Below, one piece after another: positions 26,838-38,123 of a stretch of DNA of 64,000 nt. The stretch's first letter is position 1, and every line of letters starts with the position of its first letter. A model generated the notes under the pieces. It was not told the DNA's origin and ran no database searches. It worked only from the letters and a program-made list of their open reading frames with translations. This DNA is from Spiroplasma culicicola AES-1 (GTDB lineage Bacteria; Bacillota_I; Bacilli_A; Mycoplasmatales; Mycoplasmataceae), in NCBI RefSeq assembly GCF_000565175.1, contig NZ_CP006681.1, positions 62,001 through 126,000 on the forward strand, read 5' to 3'. The translations under genes and the position numbers were made by a program.

Positions 26838-28931
26838 ATGAGAGAAAAAATATTACAGAAATTAGAAAAAGACGAACGAGTACATTTAAATGATTTATTA
26901 AAACTAAGCAATAGTGATCAAGAATTGGTAACAAATGCTTTAAAAGAATTACAAGCTGAATATCAAATTGCATGAACTAAAGAAAATGTTGTTTATAAAA
27001 TTGGTGACAAATATAAAATTGGTTCTATTAAAATCAATGATAAAGGTTTTGGATTTGTAAAGGATTTAAATGATATTGAAAATGATTATTTTGTAGCTCC
27101 AAATGCAATTAATGGAGCAATTTCAACAGATGAAGTTGTCTTTACATTAGAAAAAGAAGCAGACGGTCGTTTAAAAGCAAACGTCGAAGAAATCGCTTTA
27201 AGAACCAAAACTTATTTAATTGGAGAAATCCATGAAAGTAAAGATGGTCGTTTTTTAGATTTCGTGGCAAATGAACCAGGGTTTAAAAATTATCGTATTG
27301 TCATGGTTAACTCAAAGGACTATAAGTTAAAAAAAGATTTAATTATAAAGGTAAAAATCCTTGATGTTAGAGAGCGAAAACTATTTACAAGAATTCAAAA
27401 AATTATTGGTGATGCTAATAAAGCCATTGATAGAATTATTTCAATTGCTTATGAATTTGATATTAAACCAGATTTTAATAAACAAACAATCGATAATGCA
27501 CAAATGGTTGCAAAACCAATTGATTATAATGATCCTTTAGTTAAAAGACGTAAAAAAATAATTACAGATAAAAATTTAGTAACAATTGATGGAGCTGACT
27601 CAAAAGATTTAGATGATGCAGTTTATGTTGAAAAAACAGCAACTGGATATAAATTATTTGTAGCAATTGCTGATGTTAGTTATTATGTGACACCATTTTC
27701 TCCATTAGATAATACTGCTTTATTTAGAGGAAACTCAGTTTATCTGGCCAATAAAGTAATTCCAATGTTACCAGAAAAGTTATCAAATGGAGTATGTAGT
27801 TTAAATCCAAATGAAGATAAATTATGTATGGTTGCAGAAATGGATTTTGATATGAATGGAAATATGATTCACAAAAAAGTCTATGAATCAGTTATGAATT
27901 CAAAAGCACGTTTAACTTATAATGAAGTTAATGAATTATTTAGTAAAGGTACTTCTTCAAGAAGCCAAGAAATTATTGATATGTTAATGGTGGCCAAAGA
28001 ATTACATGAATTAATTGATGCAGAGCGTTCAGCAAGAGGTGCCATTGAATTTGATGTTCCAGAACCAAAAATTATTTTAGATAAAGATAGTAATGTGATT
28101 GATATTGTTCCAAGAGGAAGAGGAGTTTCAGAAAAACTAATTGAAAACTTTATGGTTAGTGCTAATGAAGCAGTGGCTCAAGTAATTTTTGAAAAAGAAT
28201 TACCATATGTTTATCGAAACCATGGAATTCCAAAAGAAGAAAACTTAATTGAATGACATACAATGATTAGAAATTTAGGGATCAATGTTAAATTAACTGA
28301 TCTAGATAAAATTAATCCAAAAACAATTCGCAGTGCTTTAAAACAAATTGAAGAACAAGTTACAGATCAAACAGAAAGAGATGTTATTAATGTTACTTTA
28401 TTGCGTTTTATGGAAAAAGCCGCTTATGAATTAGATAACATTGGTCACTTTGGATTGGCAAGTAGATGTTATACTCACTTTACAAGTCCAATTAGAAGAT
28501 ATAGTGATTTAATGGTACATAGATTCTTAAAACAATATTTAATTGATAAAGATTTAAGAGACTTTAAGTTAGAGCAAAATACTAAGTTTATTAATAAAGC
28601 ATGTAATATAATTAATGAAACAGAAAAACAAGCAGTTAATGCTGAAAGAGAAGTTAATAAAGTGTGTATGGCTGAATATATGACCCATCACATTGAAAAA
28701 GAATATACTGGAGTTGTTGCAGCTGTTTTAAAATTTGGTCTATTTATTCAATTAGAAAATTGTGTTGAAGGATTAATTCATATTTCAGAATTACCAGATT
28801 ACACTTTTGATGAAAAAGCCAATATTATGGTTGATAAACAAAATAAAATGTTTAGATTAGGACAAAAAGTTAAAATTAAAGTCAAAAATGCAGATGTTAA
28901 GAAAAGAATCATTGATTTTGTTTTAGCTTAA
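26838..28931 (+). CDS. rnr: Ribonuclease R
   Basis: 697-residue 3'-5' exoribonuclease of the RNB family that degrades structured RNA and, with SmpB/tmRNA, defective mRNAs. An N-terminal helix-turn-helix-like region is followed by cold-shock OB folds (GSIKINDKGFGFVKD near 55), the RNB catalytic block IDGADSKDLDDAVYVE near 252 with its Asp cluster, FTSPIRRYSDLMVHR near 550, and a C-terminal S1 domain (YTGVVAAVLKFGLFIQLENCVEGLIHISELP). TGA codons at 26974 and 28254 are Trp. The ATG at 26838 has only a weak ribosome site; an ATG at 26821 is in another frame. Confidence 0.95.
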
Positions 28932-28950: not shown

Positions 28951-29391
28951 ATGGGAGAACATGTAATTTTAAAAAATAAAAAAGCATATTTTAATTTTGA
29001 AATTTTAGATACTTGAGAAGCTGGAATTGTTTTGACAGGTCCAGAAATTAAATCAATTAGAGCAAAAGAAGTTTCAATTAATGAATCATTTATTTTAATT
29101 AGACGTGGTGAAGTTGAAATTTTAAATATGAATATTAAAAAATATGAATTTGCTCATCATGTTAAACAAGATCCAATAAGAAATCGTAAATTATTACTTC
29201 ATAAAGAAGAAATTAAAAAAATTTTAAAAAGAATTCAATTAGAAAACTTAACTTTAGTTCCTTTAAAATTGTATTTTAAAGGAAATTATGCAAAACTAGA
29301 AATAGGATTAGCAAAAGGTAAAAAGCTAATTGATAAGAGAGAGACTATTAAAAAAAGAGATGTAGAAAGAAAACTTAATAAAATTAAGTAG
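28951..29391 (+). CDS. smpB: SsrA-binding protein SmpB
   Basis: 146-residue tmRNA partner that delivers SsrA to stalled ribosomes. Landmarks are [29 protein letters not shown] at residue 8, [12 protein letters not shown] near 61 and [12 protein letters not shown] near 75, and the basic tail [20 protein letters not shown]. One TGA is Trp. GTGAGGAATT precedes the ATG. Its RNA partner lies 4.2 kb downstream at 33568-33983. Confidence 0.95.
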
Positions 29392-33266: not shown

Positions 33267-33470
33267 TTAGTTTTCTGGAATTAAAGTTAAAATTCCAGAA
33301 ATAATATTTGTAAAAAATAGTGAACATACTCCAAAGGCAACATGTTCTTGACCATCACCAATAATTTTCTTAGATTTAATTGTCATAGGTATAGTTCAAA
33401 TTAATGGAATTAGTACTATAGCAGTTGCTATAGTACTAATAATATTTAAAATATAAGCTGCTTTTCTCAT
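33267..33470 (-). CDS. Small two-span membrane protein, unknown
   Basis: 67-residue protein: MRKAAYILNIISTIATAIVLIPLIW forms one span, a loop KSKKIIGDGQEHVAF follows, and CSLFFTNIISGILTLIPEN forms a second. One TGA is Trp. GAAGGAGAAAG precedes the ATG at good spacing. It is upstream of, and on the same strand as, the small membrane gene at 32865-33167, so they may share a transcript. No family recognised. Confidence 0.65.
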
Positions 33471-33504
33471 TTTTTTCTTTCTCCTTCTATAAACGTGATT
33501 ATAC

Positions 33505-33524
33505 TTTTTTTTTTTTTTTTTTTT
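33505..33524 (+). repeat. T20 homopolymer
   Basis: Twenty consecutive T in the intergenic region between the small membrane gene and tmRNA. No hairpin precedes it on the plus strand; on the minus strand it is an A20 in the leader of the 33470 gene. Confidence 0.9.
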
Positions 33525-33553
33525 CAAGTTTATATAATTTTTGATATTTGTTC

Positions 33554-33567: not shown

Positions 33568-33983
33568 GGGGGTGTCCCGGTTTCGACAGGATACAATCTA
33601 ACCCATAACTGCAGTGGTTTGGTAGACCTTAATACTTCTAGGTTTGATAAAATGCAAACGAAGAAAAAAATGAATTTGAAATGCCAGCATTTATGATCAA
33701 TAATGCATCAGCTGGAGTTGCTTTAGCAGCTTAATTAGACTTTAAGTTTAATAGCATTCAACGTTAATTAAGTGTCTTTGTACTTCATTTAGTAAACGTA
33801 TTTACCCAAGTACAATAGGTGATGTGATTTTAGCAATAAGCATCATTGAAATTTTATTGCTAACACTATAAATTAAATCTAGTTGTTTCTGTTGGTTTAT
33901 AGTGTAAGTTAGAAACAGCTAAACTGTAGACGTTATGGTTCGGAGTATTTTGGACGCGGGTTCGATTCCCGCCATCTCCACCA
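33568..33983 (+). ncRNA. ssrA: Transfer-messenger RNA (SsrA)
   Basis: 416-nt tmRNA that rescues stalled ribosomes with SmpB. The 5' end GGGGGUG pairs with CAUCUCC before the 3' ACCA (acceptor stem), the T-arm GGTTCGATTCCCGCC is near 33959, and GUCCCGGUUUCGACAGG is the classic 5' domain. The CCA is encoded. The tag reading frame is 33654-33734: resume codon GCA, tag beginning ANEEKNEFEMPAFMINN and ending ASAGVALAA, stop TAA. The EMPAF core resembles Spiroplasma tags I remember and differs from the Mesoplasma florum tag ending YAFA. Confidence 0.97.
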
Positions 33984-34032
33984 TTTTTTTATGTTTAATT
34001 GAATTATAAGAAAGGAAAGTGAGCTACGCTTT

Positions 34033-35976
34033 ATGAATATTGGTTCCGCTTTAATCGCTTGTCTTTCTTATACTTTAATTACAGCTTTTGTTTATACAAT
34101 TACTTGAGGTTTATCTAGACATTTATTTACTAAGGTTAAAATTTATTATGAAATGATTTTAGGAATTAGTTTAGGAGTTATTTCAATTTTTGGAGTAATT
34201 ATTTTGTCATTAACAATGGGAGAGAATAAAAATTTACAATTAACAATTCTATTGCCAATGTTTTTATTTTGAACTTCAATCTTTTTTATTTCAATTTATT
34301 CAACTATTGGTATTTTAGTTTCTAATATCTTGTCATTATTTGTTTTTTCTACAATCTTTCCTCAATACTTTGGAAAATTAGAAGATATGAATATGATTAT
34401 TTTGATTGTTGTAGGTTATGTTGTGCCAATTATAATTTACTTCTTAAATGCATTTTGAAAAAAAATTAATGCTTGAAGTTCATGATCGCTTACAACCATA
34501 GCTTGTCTTGCAACAGCAATGGTGTTTGCATTTCCAACAATTAATGAAGGTGAAACTATTAGTTATTTAATGACAATCTTATTGTGGTTGGGTACTGGAT
34601 ACTTCACGTATGGATATATTACTTTAATTGATCAAATTTATATTCATGCTTTACAATTGCAAAATATTGTTGCCTATGATGATGTTTATTATTTAAATCA
34701 ATCAAGTGCACACGAACAATTGTTAAAATTTATTCAAACTAATAAAGTTAGATCGGGATATTATGTAACATTCTTTATTAGTCACTATGATATGTTTGAA
34801 AAGAAAGTAAGTAACAATATTAAAGATATTGTTGTTAGTTCAGTTTCAAAACAAGCCTATGAATTATTTAATGAGCAATTTAAAGACTTAGTATTTTTTA
34901 AACCAAACTATAAAACTTATGGAGTTTTTATTCCAATTGAAAATGAAGTTGTTTTTTCAAAAGAAAAAAATGAAACTAACATTGAAAATATCATTAAACC
35001 AATCTTTTCAAAGATTGATAATAAATTTACAGTTGAAAATTTTAAAATTACAGTTAGTTTAAAAGCAATTGTTTCAATTTATGGACTACATTCTAATAAC
35101 CTAGATAATTTATATGAACTAAATAATTATGTTAGAAATGATGTTAATTTAAATAATCAAGATTTAATTTTAGTTGACCCAAAAGAAGTTGTCTTAGAAA
35201 AAAATAAAAATAAAAAAATTCTAACTTTAAATGAAATTGTTTCATTGAACCATGTTAGTTCAATCTTTGACCCAATTTATGACTCAACTATTAATGATTT
35301 TGAATATTTGAATATTAACAGTATGGTTGAAGGAATTGAAATGAACTCAAGTTTATTTAAACCAAAAGCAAAAGATATAAATGAATATGGTTTAAGCTCG
35401 TTATTAAAAAGATATACAGCTTTAACTTCAATTAAAGATATTCATAAATATAAAATTACTAGTCAAAAAGTATTTTTAGAATATGATACAAATTATATTG
35501 CTACAGAAGAATTTGATATAAAAGTTTTTCTTGCGAAATTAAAGATGAATAAAATTAAATTAAATAATTTAATTTTAAAATTTAATATTCAAGACGAAAT
35601 CGATAATAGAGAAATGTTGGCTAAAAATTTAAATGCTTTAAAAGAATATGGAATTAAAACAGCAGTTGATGATTTTGGTGCAGAAAATTGTGATTATAGT
35701 TTATTGTCAATTTATCAACCTGAATTTATTTTTTTACAAAAAACTATCTGTAAAAAAGTTAATATAATAAAAGAAAATGAAAAGATAATTAAGAATTCAT
35801 TAAACATTGCTAATAAAATTGATGCTAAATTAATTGCAACCAATATTGATAGTTACATGATATTTAAAACAATTAAAGAATTGGGAGTTACTTTATTTAC
35901 AGGAGAATTAATTGGATCAAGTGGAGAGCCAAAATTAGATATTTCAACTGAATTAAAATACTTACTAACAAAATAG
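34033..35976 (+). CDS. Multispan membrane protein with degenerate GGDEF- and EAL-like domains
   Basis: 647 residues. About the first 200 form six or seven membrane spans (SALIACLSYTLITAFVYTI onward), in the style of sensor inputs. Residues about 215-350 follow a weak GGDEF-like pattern (VAYDDVYYLNQSSAHEQLLKFI, then YYVTFFISHYDMFEKK, FKPNYKTYGVFIP) with no GGDEF active-site motif. Residues about 480-640 resemble EAL: LKEYGIKTAVDDFGAEN keeps DDFG (Asp546-547), but the usual EAL, IKID and AEGVE sites read differently (IFLQKT, ATNIDS). Catalysis of cyclic di-GMP turnover is thus unlikely; a sensor or scaffold role is inferred. It lies directly behind tmRNA and 16 bases before mgtE, so it is probably co-transcribed with it. 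Confidence 0.75.
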
Positions 35977-35992: not shown

Positions 35993-37453
35993 ATGGATCA
36001 CAATATTATAAATATTGAAGAACTTTCAAATAAAATTGAAACCTTAATTGATGATAATAAAGTTTCTCATTTAAGAGAATTAGTCGAAGATCACTATCCT
36101 GCCGATATTGCAGAAGCAATGTCAAAGTTAGAAGAGAAAAAAATTATTGTTGCGTTACGATTATTATCAACTGATGTAGTAGCAGAAATTTTTACTTACT
36201 TTGATTATGATATTCAAGAAGAAATTATTAATACTTATTCAAGTCAGCAAGTTAAAGAATTGTTTGAAGAAATTTTTACTGATGATATTGTAGATATTTT
36301 AGAAGAGATGCCTTCAAACATTGTTAAAAAAGTTTTACGTAACTCTTCTCCTGAGTCACGTTTACAAATTAATAGTATTTTAAAATATGAAGAACAATCA
36401 GCTGGAAGTATTATGTCAGTTGAATATACAAAATTGCGTACAACTTGAACTGCAAAACAAGCAATTGAAGTTATTAAAGAGCAAAGAGAAGAAACAGAAG
36501 AAATTAGTTCCTTTTATGTAGTTGATGGTTTAAATAATTTAAAAGGAATTATTGAATTAAAAACTTTATTCTTTGCAAAACCTGAAACTTCAATTTCTAA
36601 CTTAATGGATGAAAGAATTGTTTATGTTTATACTTCAACAGATCAAGAACATGTTATTGAGCAATTCAAAAAGTATGACATTATAACTTTGCCAATTTTA
36701 AACAGTCAAAATAAATTAGTAGGAATTATTACTGTTGATGATGTAATTGATGTAATTGAAGAAGAAGCAACAGAAGATATTCACAAGATGGCAGGGATTA
36801 GTCCCACAGAAGATGCTTATTTTAAAACTAGTGTTTGAAAAATGGTTCGTTCAAGAAGTGTATGATTATTATTCTTAATGATTTCAGCAACTCTTTCTCA
36901 AATTGTTATTTCAGTTTTTATGAAAATTTATAATAGCAATTCTACAGGAGAACAACAAGTTGAACAATGAAGTATTAGTTACATTGTAACAATGTTGTTA
37001 ACACCATTATTGACAGTTATTTCTGGAACTGCAGGAAATGCAGGAAGTCAATCATCAACGATGATTGTACGTGCCTTATCTTTACGTGAAGTTGAGACTA
37101 AAGATTTTGCAAGAGTAATGTGAAAAGAATTGAGAGTTGCTTCATTAACTGGATTAATTTTAGTAAGTGCAAACTTTATTAGAATGGTTTCAATTTATGC
37201 TGTTGAATATAAGGGAGATATTAATCATCCTGAATTATGATATTCAATTGCAACTCTTTCAATTGCAATGTATTTAACTTTAATTATTTCAAAATTAATT
37301 GGGGGATTATTGCCAATTCTTGCTAAAAAAATTAAATTAGACCCAGCAGTAATGGCAGCTCCATTACTAACAACAATTGTAGATGCACTTTCAACTGCAA
37401 TCTTCTTTTCAATTGGTTTGATTTTCTTTTGACAACAAATACAAGGAGGATAG
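35993..37453 (+). CDS. mgtE: MgtE-type magnesium transporter
   Basis: 486-residue Mg2+ channel/transporter. The N-terminal superhelical domain (HYPADIAEAMSKLEEKK, FTDDIVDILEEMPSN) is followed by two CBS domains (SAGSIMSVEYTKLRTTWTAKQAIEVIKEQ; LVGIITVDDVIDVIEEEATEDIHKMAG), then a C-terminal membrane domain of five spans with TPLLTVISGTAGNAGSQSS and LDPAVMAAPLLTTIVDALST, the pore motifs. The plug helix DVIEEEATEDIHKMAG is normal. AAAGAGGAAC precedes the ATG. trmB starts three bases after its stop. Confidence 0.95.
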
Positions 37454-37456
37454 TTT

Positions 37457-38101
37457 ATGAGATTAAGAAATAAAAATTGAACTAAAGATTATATTTTAGA
37501 AAATCAAAAATATATGATTGAAACTACAGCAAAAATTAATCCAAAACAATTCTTTAAAAATGAATATCCAATTTATTTAGAGATTGGATGTGGCAAAGGC
37601 CAATTTGCAATTGGCAATTCTTTGAAGTATAAGAATAAAAACTTTATTGCAATGGAAAAAGAAACAACTGTAATTGGAGTAGCACTTAAAAAAGCAATTA
37701 CAACAATTGAAGACGATTTTGAAAATTTAAAGTTTTTAAATAAGTTTGCAGAAAATTTACTTGATATTTTTGAACCACATAGTTTTGATGGAATTTATTT
37801 AAACTTTTCAGATCCATGACCTAAAGCAAAGCACTATAAAAAACGCTTAACGTATATTAAGTTTTTAGATATTTATTGAGATTTATTAAAAGATAATGGA
37901 ATTATTGAAATTAAAACTGATAATGATAAATTATATGAATTTAGTTTAGAACAAATCAATGATTCAAGATTTGAAATGTTATTTAATACAAATAATTTGT
38001 ATAGTGATGAAAATAATTTAGTTGATAATGTAGCAACTGAATATGAACAAAAGTTCCATGCAATGGGAAAAAATATTAATAAAATCATAATTAAAAAGTA
38101 G
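37457..38101 (+). CDS. trmB: tRNA (guanine-N7)-methyltransferase
   Basis: 214-residue SAM-dependent enzyme that methylates G46 of tRNAs. The SAM motif LEIGCGKGQFAIGNS is near residue 42, and the family signature NFSDPWPKAKHYKKRL follows near 118, then GIIEIKTDN. Four TGA are Trp. AAGGAGGATAGTTT precedes the ATG, overlapping the end of mgtE. Standard length. Confidence 0.95.
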
Positions 38102-38123
38102 TTGATTACTCAACTACTTTTTC
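38093..38123. terminator. Bidirectional rho-independent terminator
   Basis: AAAAAGTAGTTGA pairs perfectly with TCAACTACTTTTT around a 5-base loop. It overlaps the ends of trmB (plus) and the convergent membrane gene (minus), terminating both. Confidence 0.85.

Follow-up and report, generated by a model that had tools for sequence, protein, structure and literature searches.

A degenerate GGDEF-EAL membrane protein encoded beside mgtE in Spiroplasma culicicola and beside diadenylate cyclase genes in distant relatives

The protein that we call EALp in Spiroplasma culicicola AES-1 joins a predicted membrane part to a GGDEF-like and an EAL-like domain, and the sequence evidence supports its description as a non-catalytic, degenerate GGDEF-EAL membrane protein in a mollicute. 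With mgtE as its neighbour in the window and a diadenylate cyclase gene next to it in many distant relatives, EALp is probably a regulator left over from an operon for c-di-AMP and magnesium ion control. Throughout, the window is the whole 64,000-nt stretch of DNA analysed (contig NZ_CP006681.1, positions 62,001 to 126,000), f1 is the family to which it belongs (the window genome and 59 relatives, 60 genomes; to judge by genetic code 4 and gene content, the Spiroplasma / Entomoplasma / mycoides group), and EALp residue numbers are counted from window position 33991.

The EALp reading frame is intact in genetic code 4 from 33991 to 35976, its best start lying at 34033 to give about 647 residues, and this start position is common to the relatives, with a conserved ribosome-binding site, AAGAAAGG, just 5' of it. 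Family-averaged hydropathy predicts six to seven spans at residues 15–214, in agreement with the seven or so of an initial annotation made from the letters and open reading frames alone. The features of the locus are as follows.

26838–28931, plus strand: rnr (RNase R), Pfam RNB; part of the putative ancestral order rnr-smpB-ssrA-EALp
28951–29391, plus strand: smpB, PF01668; part of the same putative ancestral order
33568–33983, plus strand: ssrA (tmRNA), found with ARAGORN; directly 5' of EALp and an old neighbour by synteny
34033–35976, plus strand: EALp, a membrane protein whose GGDEF and EAL domains are both degenerate; preferred start at 34033 in a frame that opens at 33991
34033–34632, plus strand: EALp membrane part with 6–7 predicted spans, residues 15–214, from family-averaged hydropathy
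34654–35196, plus strand: GGDEF-like domain lacking the active site, residues ~222–402, from hhalign with shuffle control and the site table
35233–35973, plus strand: EAL-like domain in which catalytic residues are not conserved, residues ~415–661, from Pfam, hhalign and the site table
35993–37453, plus strand: mgtE (MgtE_N, two CBS domains and the MgtE membrane domain), from Pfam; 16 nt 3' of EALp
37457–38101, plus strand: trmB, PF02390; 3 nt after mgtE and last gene before the terminator-like stem
38093–38122, bidirectional: terminator-like stem, from terminator prediction

The only significant Pfam match of EALp is to the EAL domain (PF00563), at residues 461–642 (E 1.4e-18, 67.6 bits against a cut-off of 31.3). 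Comparison with 18 intact EAL domains of the same class aligned about 230 columns (hhalign, Prob 99, pairwise E ~1e-19), and the best PDB matches of the C-terminal part are EAL structures, so that the EAL fold proposed in the initial annotation is significant at the profile level. EALp thus aligns to the fold of the EAL phosphodiesterases but differs from them in that metal and catalytic residues are replaced. When sites were mapped through the profile alignment, with about 48 aligned EALp relatives in the site table, the E of EAL, the N of INLS, the E of EITE, the K of IKID, both E of AEGVE and the Q of QGY proved unconserved in the family; the changes noticed earlier at EAL, IKID and AEGVE were therefore correctly read. 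The segment GIKTAVDDFG, which had been taken to be kept at the right place for an EAL domain, is indeed present in the window protein, but its DD (residues 560–561) is found there only and is no feature of the family, the relatives having mostly S or K, then N. In the EALp families linked to a diadenylate cyclase (DAC), the EAL barrel lacks its C-terminal end.

Evidence for the GGDEF-like domain comes from the wider family, because the profile of the window's own family reached only Prob 4 against GGDEF; the window EALp alone had no Pfam GGDEF match. With divergent relatives included, the EALp profile matched GGDEF over 148 columns (Prob 94, E 1.4e-7, score 50.6), as against a mean score of 11.4 (sd 1.9, maximum 16.7) for 100 column shuffles in the same comparison, hhalign E-values being pairwise and used only alongside this shuffle control. 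The match spans the whole-domain profile of the GGDEF diguanylate cyclases (PF00990) in the expected register, the ITVSIG strand aligning with the conserved SIYGxHSN strand of EALp. EALp differs from these cyclases in falling below Pfam detection and in having lost both the metal Asp and the GG[DE]EF motif, whose position reads NYKTY within FFKPNYKTYGVF and NYKT[FY] or similar across the family. A GGDEF-like fold without its active site in the middle part of the protein, as first suggested from the window sequence, is thus well supported by these comparisons once divergent relatives are brought in, and both halves of the protein have profile matches. Because the sites of both domains are replaced or unconserved, catalysis by either of them appears very unlikely. 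AF2 predictions made without an alignment from the window sequence had pLDDT values of 31 for residues 200–661 and 34 for residues 400–661.

Other proteins with weak EAL matches were not taken as EALp orthologues. These were a second degenerate family of 580–660-aa proteins with few spans in f5 and f15 (L086:3897-5690, L089:4091-5872, L182, L183), and proteins of about 1000 aa in f12. The gene of the second degenerate family adjoins that of prolyl-tRNA synthetase in f5, with a PLD-type synthase nearby, and in L182 and L183 it adjoins a gene for 475–478 aa. Large EAL-like proteins of about 955–1006 aa, with weak EAL matches and no clear catalytic motifs, are encoded in other families of the class, where their gene neighbourhood is conserved (L176–L181, L184, L185).

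All 20 genomes of the genus encode a full-length EALp, with relatives at 39–53% identity, and dN/dS values of 0.04–0.38 over five pairs indicate purifying selection. Across the order, a wider profile (A3) found it in 89 of 298 genomes. Searches of a genome-contig collection gave chance matches only, the window's relatives being apparently absent from that collection, and searches of viral contigs gave no matches. The only broken copy seen is that of genome G196, split by a rearrangement (L093, L094) that placed its N-terminal fragment about 200 kb away from the remainder. All 60 f1 genomes have at least one MreB match, and copies number about 4–9 in those with EALp versus 1–3 in most lineages without it, a difference that may simply follow phylogeny.

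Gene order in f1 runs rnr-smpB-...-ssrA-EALp-mgtE-trmB. The 16-nt gap between EALp and mgtE holds no terminator-like site on the plus strand, consistent with the co-transcription of the two genes that the initial annotation had predicted. A transcript shared between tmRNA and EALp is also possible, because the tmRNA ends 49 nt before the EALp start codon (window 33568–34033). On the minus strand, positions 33267–33527 encode a small predicted membrane protein that starts MKKKKKKKYNHVYRRRKKKM and has up to three tandem relatives in L104.

Twenty-eight of the 60 f1 genomes contain both EALp and mgtE, and the two genes are adjacent in all 28. Thirteen genomes have EALp without mgtE, 18 have mgtE without EALp and one has neither. 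The 13 all belong to genus g8, where the order in the loci read is EALp-trmB (one copy, that of G196, being the split one); of the 18, nine loci were read, and in each the gap is closed, with ssrA-mgtE-trmB in the corresponding position. No MgtE domain was found in any of 14 genomes of g8 (G026, G034 and 12 others). In genus g11, MgtE is strongly diverged (Pfam E ~1e-6) and still adjoins EALp (L099:8652-10076, L101:8957-10378).

Outside f1 we read 47 EALp loci, and in 25 of them the next gene after EALp is a same-strand DAC gene, mostly at a gap of 14–60 nt (6/6 loci in f11, 12/15 in f3 g36, 2/2 in g45 and single loci in g14, g40, g42, f7 and f10). Two genes separate EALp from DAC in the two f8 loci, so that gene linkage with a cyclase is conserved in 25 of 47 loci by adjacency and in 2 more at close range. 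In six further loci, all in DAC-less genomes, mgtE directly follows EALp (five of five in g33 and one in g37), the neighbours are unrelated in 12 loci, and in two the contig ends. EALp-DAC-mgtE or EALp-DAC-x-mgtE arrangements occur in f3 (g40, g45), f7 g44, f10 and f11, and mgtE is the commonest neighbour homologous to a window gene (19 of the 47 loci), followed by rnr and smpB with 12 each. The DAC domain beside the divergent EALp copies was identified by hmmscan of the adjoining genes at E-values of 1e-30 to 1e-34; the EALp-linked proteins are CdaM-like, having one N-terminal span, and 27 of 28 have intact DGA and RHR motifs, the sole exception being a 141-aa ORF.

DAC was found in 200 of the 298 genomes of the order and in 0 of the 60 f1 genomes, and c-di-AMP synthesis seems to have been lost across the whole of f1; absence of DAC is less certain in f3, since many f3 genomes are incomplete. 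With no DAC in 60 of 60 genomes, the EALp-mgtE pair of f1 can therefore be read as an EALp-DAC-mgtE operon minus its cyclase. The simplest history suggested by these gene orders would have an ancestral cluster rnr-smpB-ssrA-EALp-cdaM-mgtE, of which the window would represent the state after loss of cdaM, and g33 would have lost cdaM in parallel. Part of the synteny (rnr-smpB-ssrA and trmB) is plain conserved gene order, and order in reduced genomes is partly kept without functional reason; the argument for EALp rests on linkage that survives rearranged surroundings.

These gene orders bear on the proposal of the initial annotation that the silent pair is a sensor for MgtE. A dedicated sensor or regulator, with silent domains that bind metal or nucleotide and gate MgtE directly, would account for adjacency in 28 of 28 co-occurring f1 pairs, for the parallel EALp-mgtE pairing in f3 g33 after loss of the cyclase and for the prominence of mgtE among the neighbours elsewhere (19 of 47 distant loci). 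The linkage to mgtE thus stands, but the dedicated role fares worse: as a test of it, co-presence and co-loss with mgtE in the 60 f1 genomes failed, with 13 genomes having only EALp and 18 only mgtE. Such independent loss of EALp and mgtE speaks against an obligate pair, and the partner of EALp in f3 g36 is the cyclase, not mgtE. A dedicated MgtE sensor is therefore unlikely. Independent losses, and retention of EALp without DAC and MgtE in the 13 g8 genomes, would suit an independent membrane sensor with some other partner, the neighbours of which reflect only frozen gene order. Yet DAC or mgtE linkage survives in f3, f7 and f10 despite different surrounding genes, and we do not find this a likely account either.

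Among known proteins, LapD and CsrD resemble EALp in combining a membrane part with a silent GGDEF-EAL pair, and they act by contact, not by catalysis; EALp differs from both in that its host has no detectable c-di-GMP synthesis, its scores are far below the family cut-offs and its gene is linked to those of a c-di-AMP synthase and MgtE. Degenerate GGDEF/EAL proteins of E. coli act through contacts, and CsrD is itself one of them (PMC5635695). A CsrD-type adaptor of RNA decay, working with the genes for RNase R or trans-translation, would be in keeping with the rnr, smpB and ssrA neighbours common to f1, f8, f11 and part of f3, and EALp has a weak CsrD match. We judge this reading highly unlikely: the match, at 30.8 bits, compares with an NCBIfam equivalog cut-off of 663, genomes that lack EALp also keep rnr-smpB-ssrA in order, and EALp retains its DAC or mgtE partner where rnr or ssrA has moved away.

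A LapD-type c-di-GMP receptor has the same domain order (membrane part, degenerate GGDEF, degenerate EAL) and EALp gives a weak LapD match, but this scores 22.7 bits against an NCBIfam equivalog cut-off of 1020, and the EAL active-site residues are replaced. Moreover, a Pfam search of the window genome returned 0 GGDEF matches and EALp as the only EAL match, hence no source of c-di-GMP was found, in line with the initial remark that signalling by this nucleotide is not expected here; a LapD-type role is correspondingly very improbable. Mollicutes are said not to use c-di-GMP, Acholeplasma laidlawii excepted, and a mollicute from coral is reported to have a single gene with an EAL-like domain (PMC11535214). 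This coral gene is the only related mention that we found in open-access papers, and searches of these for c-di-AMP or c-di-GMP in Spiroplasma returned no description of the EALp family. As for a decaying pseudogene or a chance resemblance, loss of all catalytic sites is what it would lead one to expect, but it is refuted by conservation, with full-length copies in 20/20 congeners, dN/dS of 0.04–0.38, a Pfam E of 1.4e-18 and a single broken copy seen (G196).

Comparison with systems of c-di-AMP biology is closer in setting than in domains. CdaR, a YbbR protein, is a membrane protein encoded beside a diadenylate cyclase, CdaA, which it regulates; EALp is alike in both position and membrane location, but its domains are unrelated and it has no YbbR match in Pfam. 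GdpP (YybT), like EALp, is a membrane protein with a degenerate GGDEF domain, and it belongs to c-di-AMP biology (PMC10720645), but it carries DHH-DHHA1, for which EALp has no Pfam match, where EALp has its EAL-like domain instead. The cyclases adjoining EALp have the plan of mycoplasma CdaM, one span plus DAC (PMC5508000); no EALp-like partner is described in the CdaM papers that we read, and f1 has no DAC. From its domains EALp would thus work like a degenerate GGDEF-EAL adaptor, the novelty lying in the genes to which it is linked, those for c-di-AMP synthesis and Mg2+ transport.

We therefore favour, if tentatively, a role for EALp as a non-catalytic GGDEF-EAL membrane adaptor in an ion-homeostasis module with CdaM and MgtE. 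Both active sites of its GGDEF-EAL ancestor would have been lost ahead of the order's diversification, and EALp would originally have belonged to an ion-homeostasis operon EALp-cdaM-mgtE, in which CdaM would make c-di-AMP and MgtE would provide an Mg2+ channel whose CBS domains are of a type to which c-di-AMP binds in Bacillus. The 6–7-span part may sense membrane or ionic state, and the signal would reach the silent GGDEF-EAL pair through the linker IxxIYxHAxxLQNIVxYD; the pair could then tune CdaM, and possibly MgtE, by protein–protein contact, much as CdaR acts on CdaA or degenerate GGDEF/EAL proteins act elsewhere. After loss of CdaM in the window's lineage, EALp would act without c-di-AMP, beside MgtE in most species.

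We read EALp as part of a regulatory unit because the operon combines a cyclase with the channel that is its likely target and with a membrane protein whose signalling domains are silent. An adaptor is supported by the intact ORF, which is under purifying selection though the catalytic residues of both domains are unconserved, and a module by the 25 of 47 non-f1 loci in which DAC follows EALp and by the DAC-less genomes in which EALp abuts mgtE (f3 g33 5/5, g37 1, f1 28/28). c-di-AMP is, moreover, a K+ and osmotic signal. It binds MgtE of B. subtilis and tracks Mg2+ during osmoadaptation (PMC8844918), and an mgtE missense mutation is present in a cdaA mutant of Borrelia (PMC8316131). Against an adaptor of CdaM, most DAC-bearing genomes (for example those of family f7) have no detectable EALp, so that CdaM works without it there, and the 12 of 47 non-f1 loci with unrelated neighbours likewise count against it. 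Conversely, EALp occurs without DAC in 41 genomes of f1 and about 9 of f3; 13 of those in f1 have neither DAC nor MgtE, and a further role must therefore exist in them.

Control of CdaM, the essential c-di-AMP synthase of mycoplasmas, has been stated to be an open matter (PMC5508000), and a conserved GGDEF-EAL protein with silent domains, encoded together with CdaM and MgtE in one operon, is a concrete candidate for it. That EALp is the missing CdaM regulator itself, a c-di-GMP pair stripped of catalysis, reused for c-di-AMP synthesis and Mg2+ uptake and outliving c-di-AMP in Spiroplasma-type lineages, is conceivable, though we regard it as rather doubtful. The gene order of the EALp operon joins Mg2+ uptake to c-di-AMP, and one signalling fold would have been reused around another signal; f1, from which c-di-AMP synthesis seems to be absent in 60 of 60 genomes, keeps EALp in most of its lineages.
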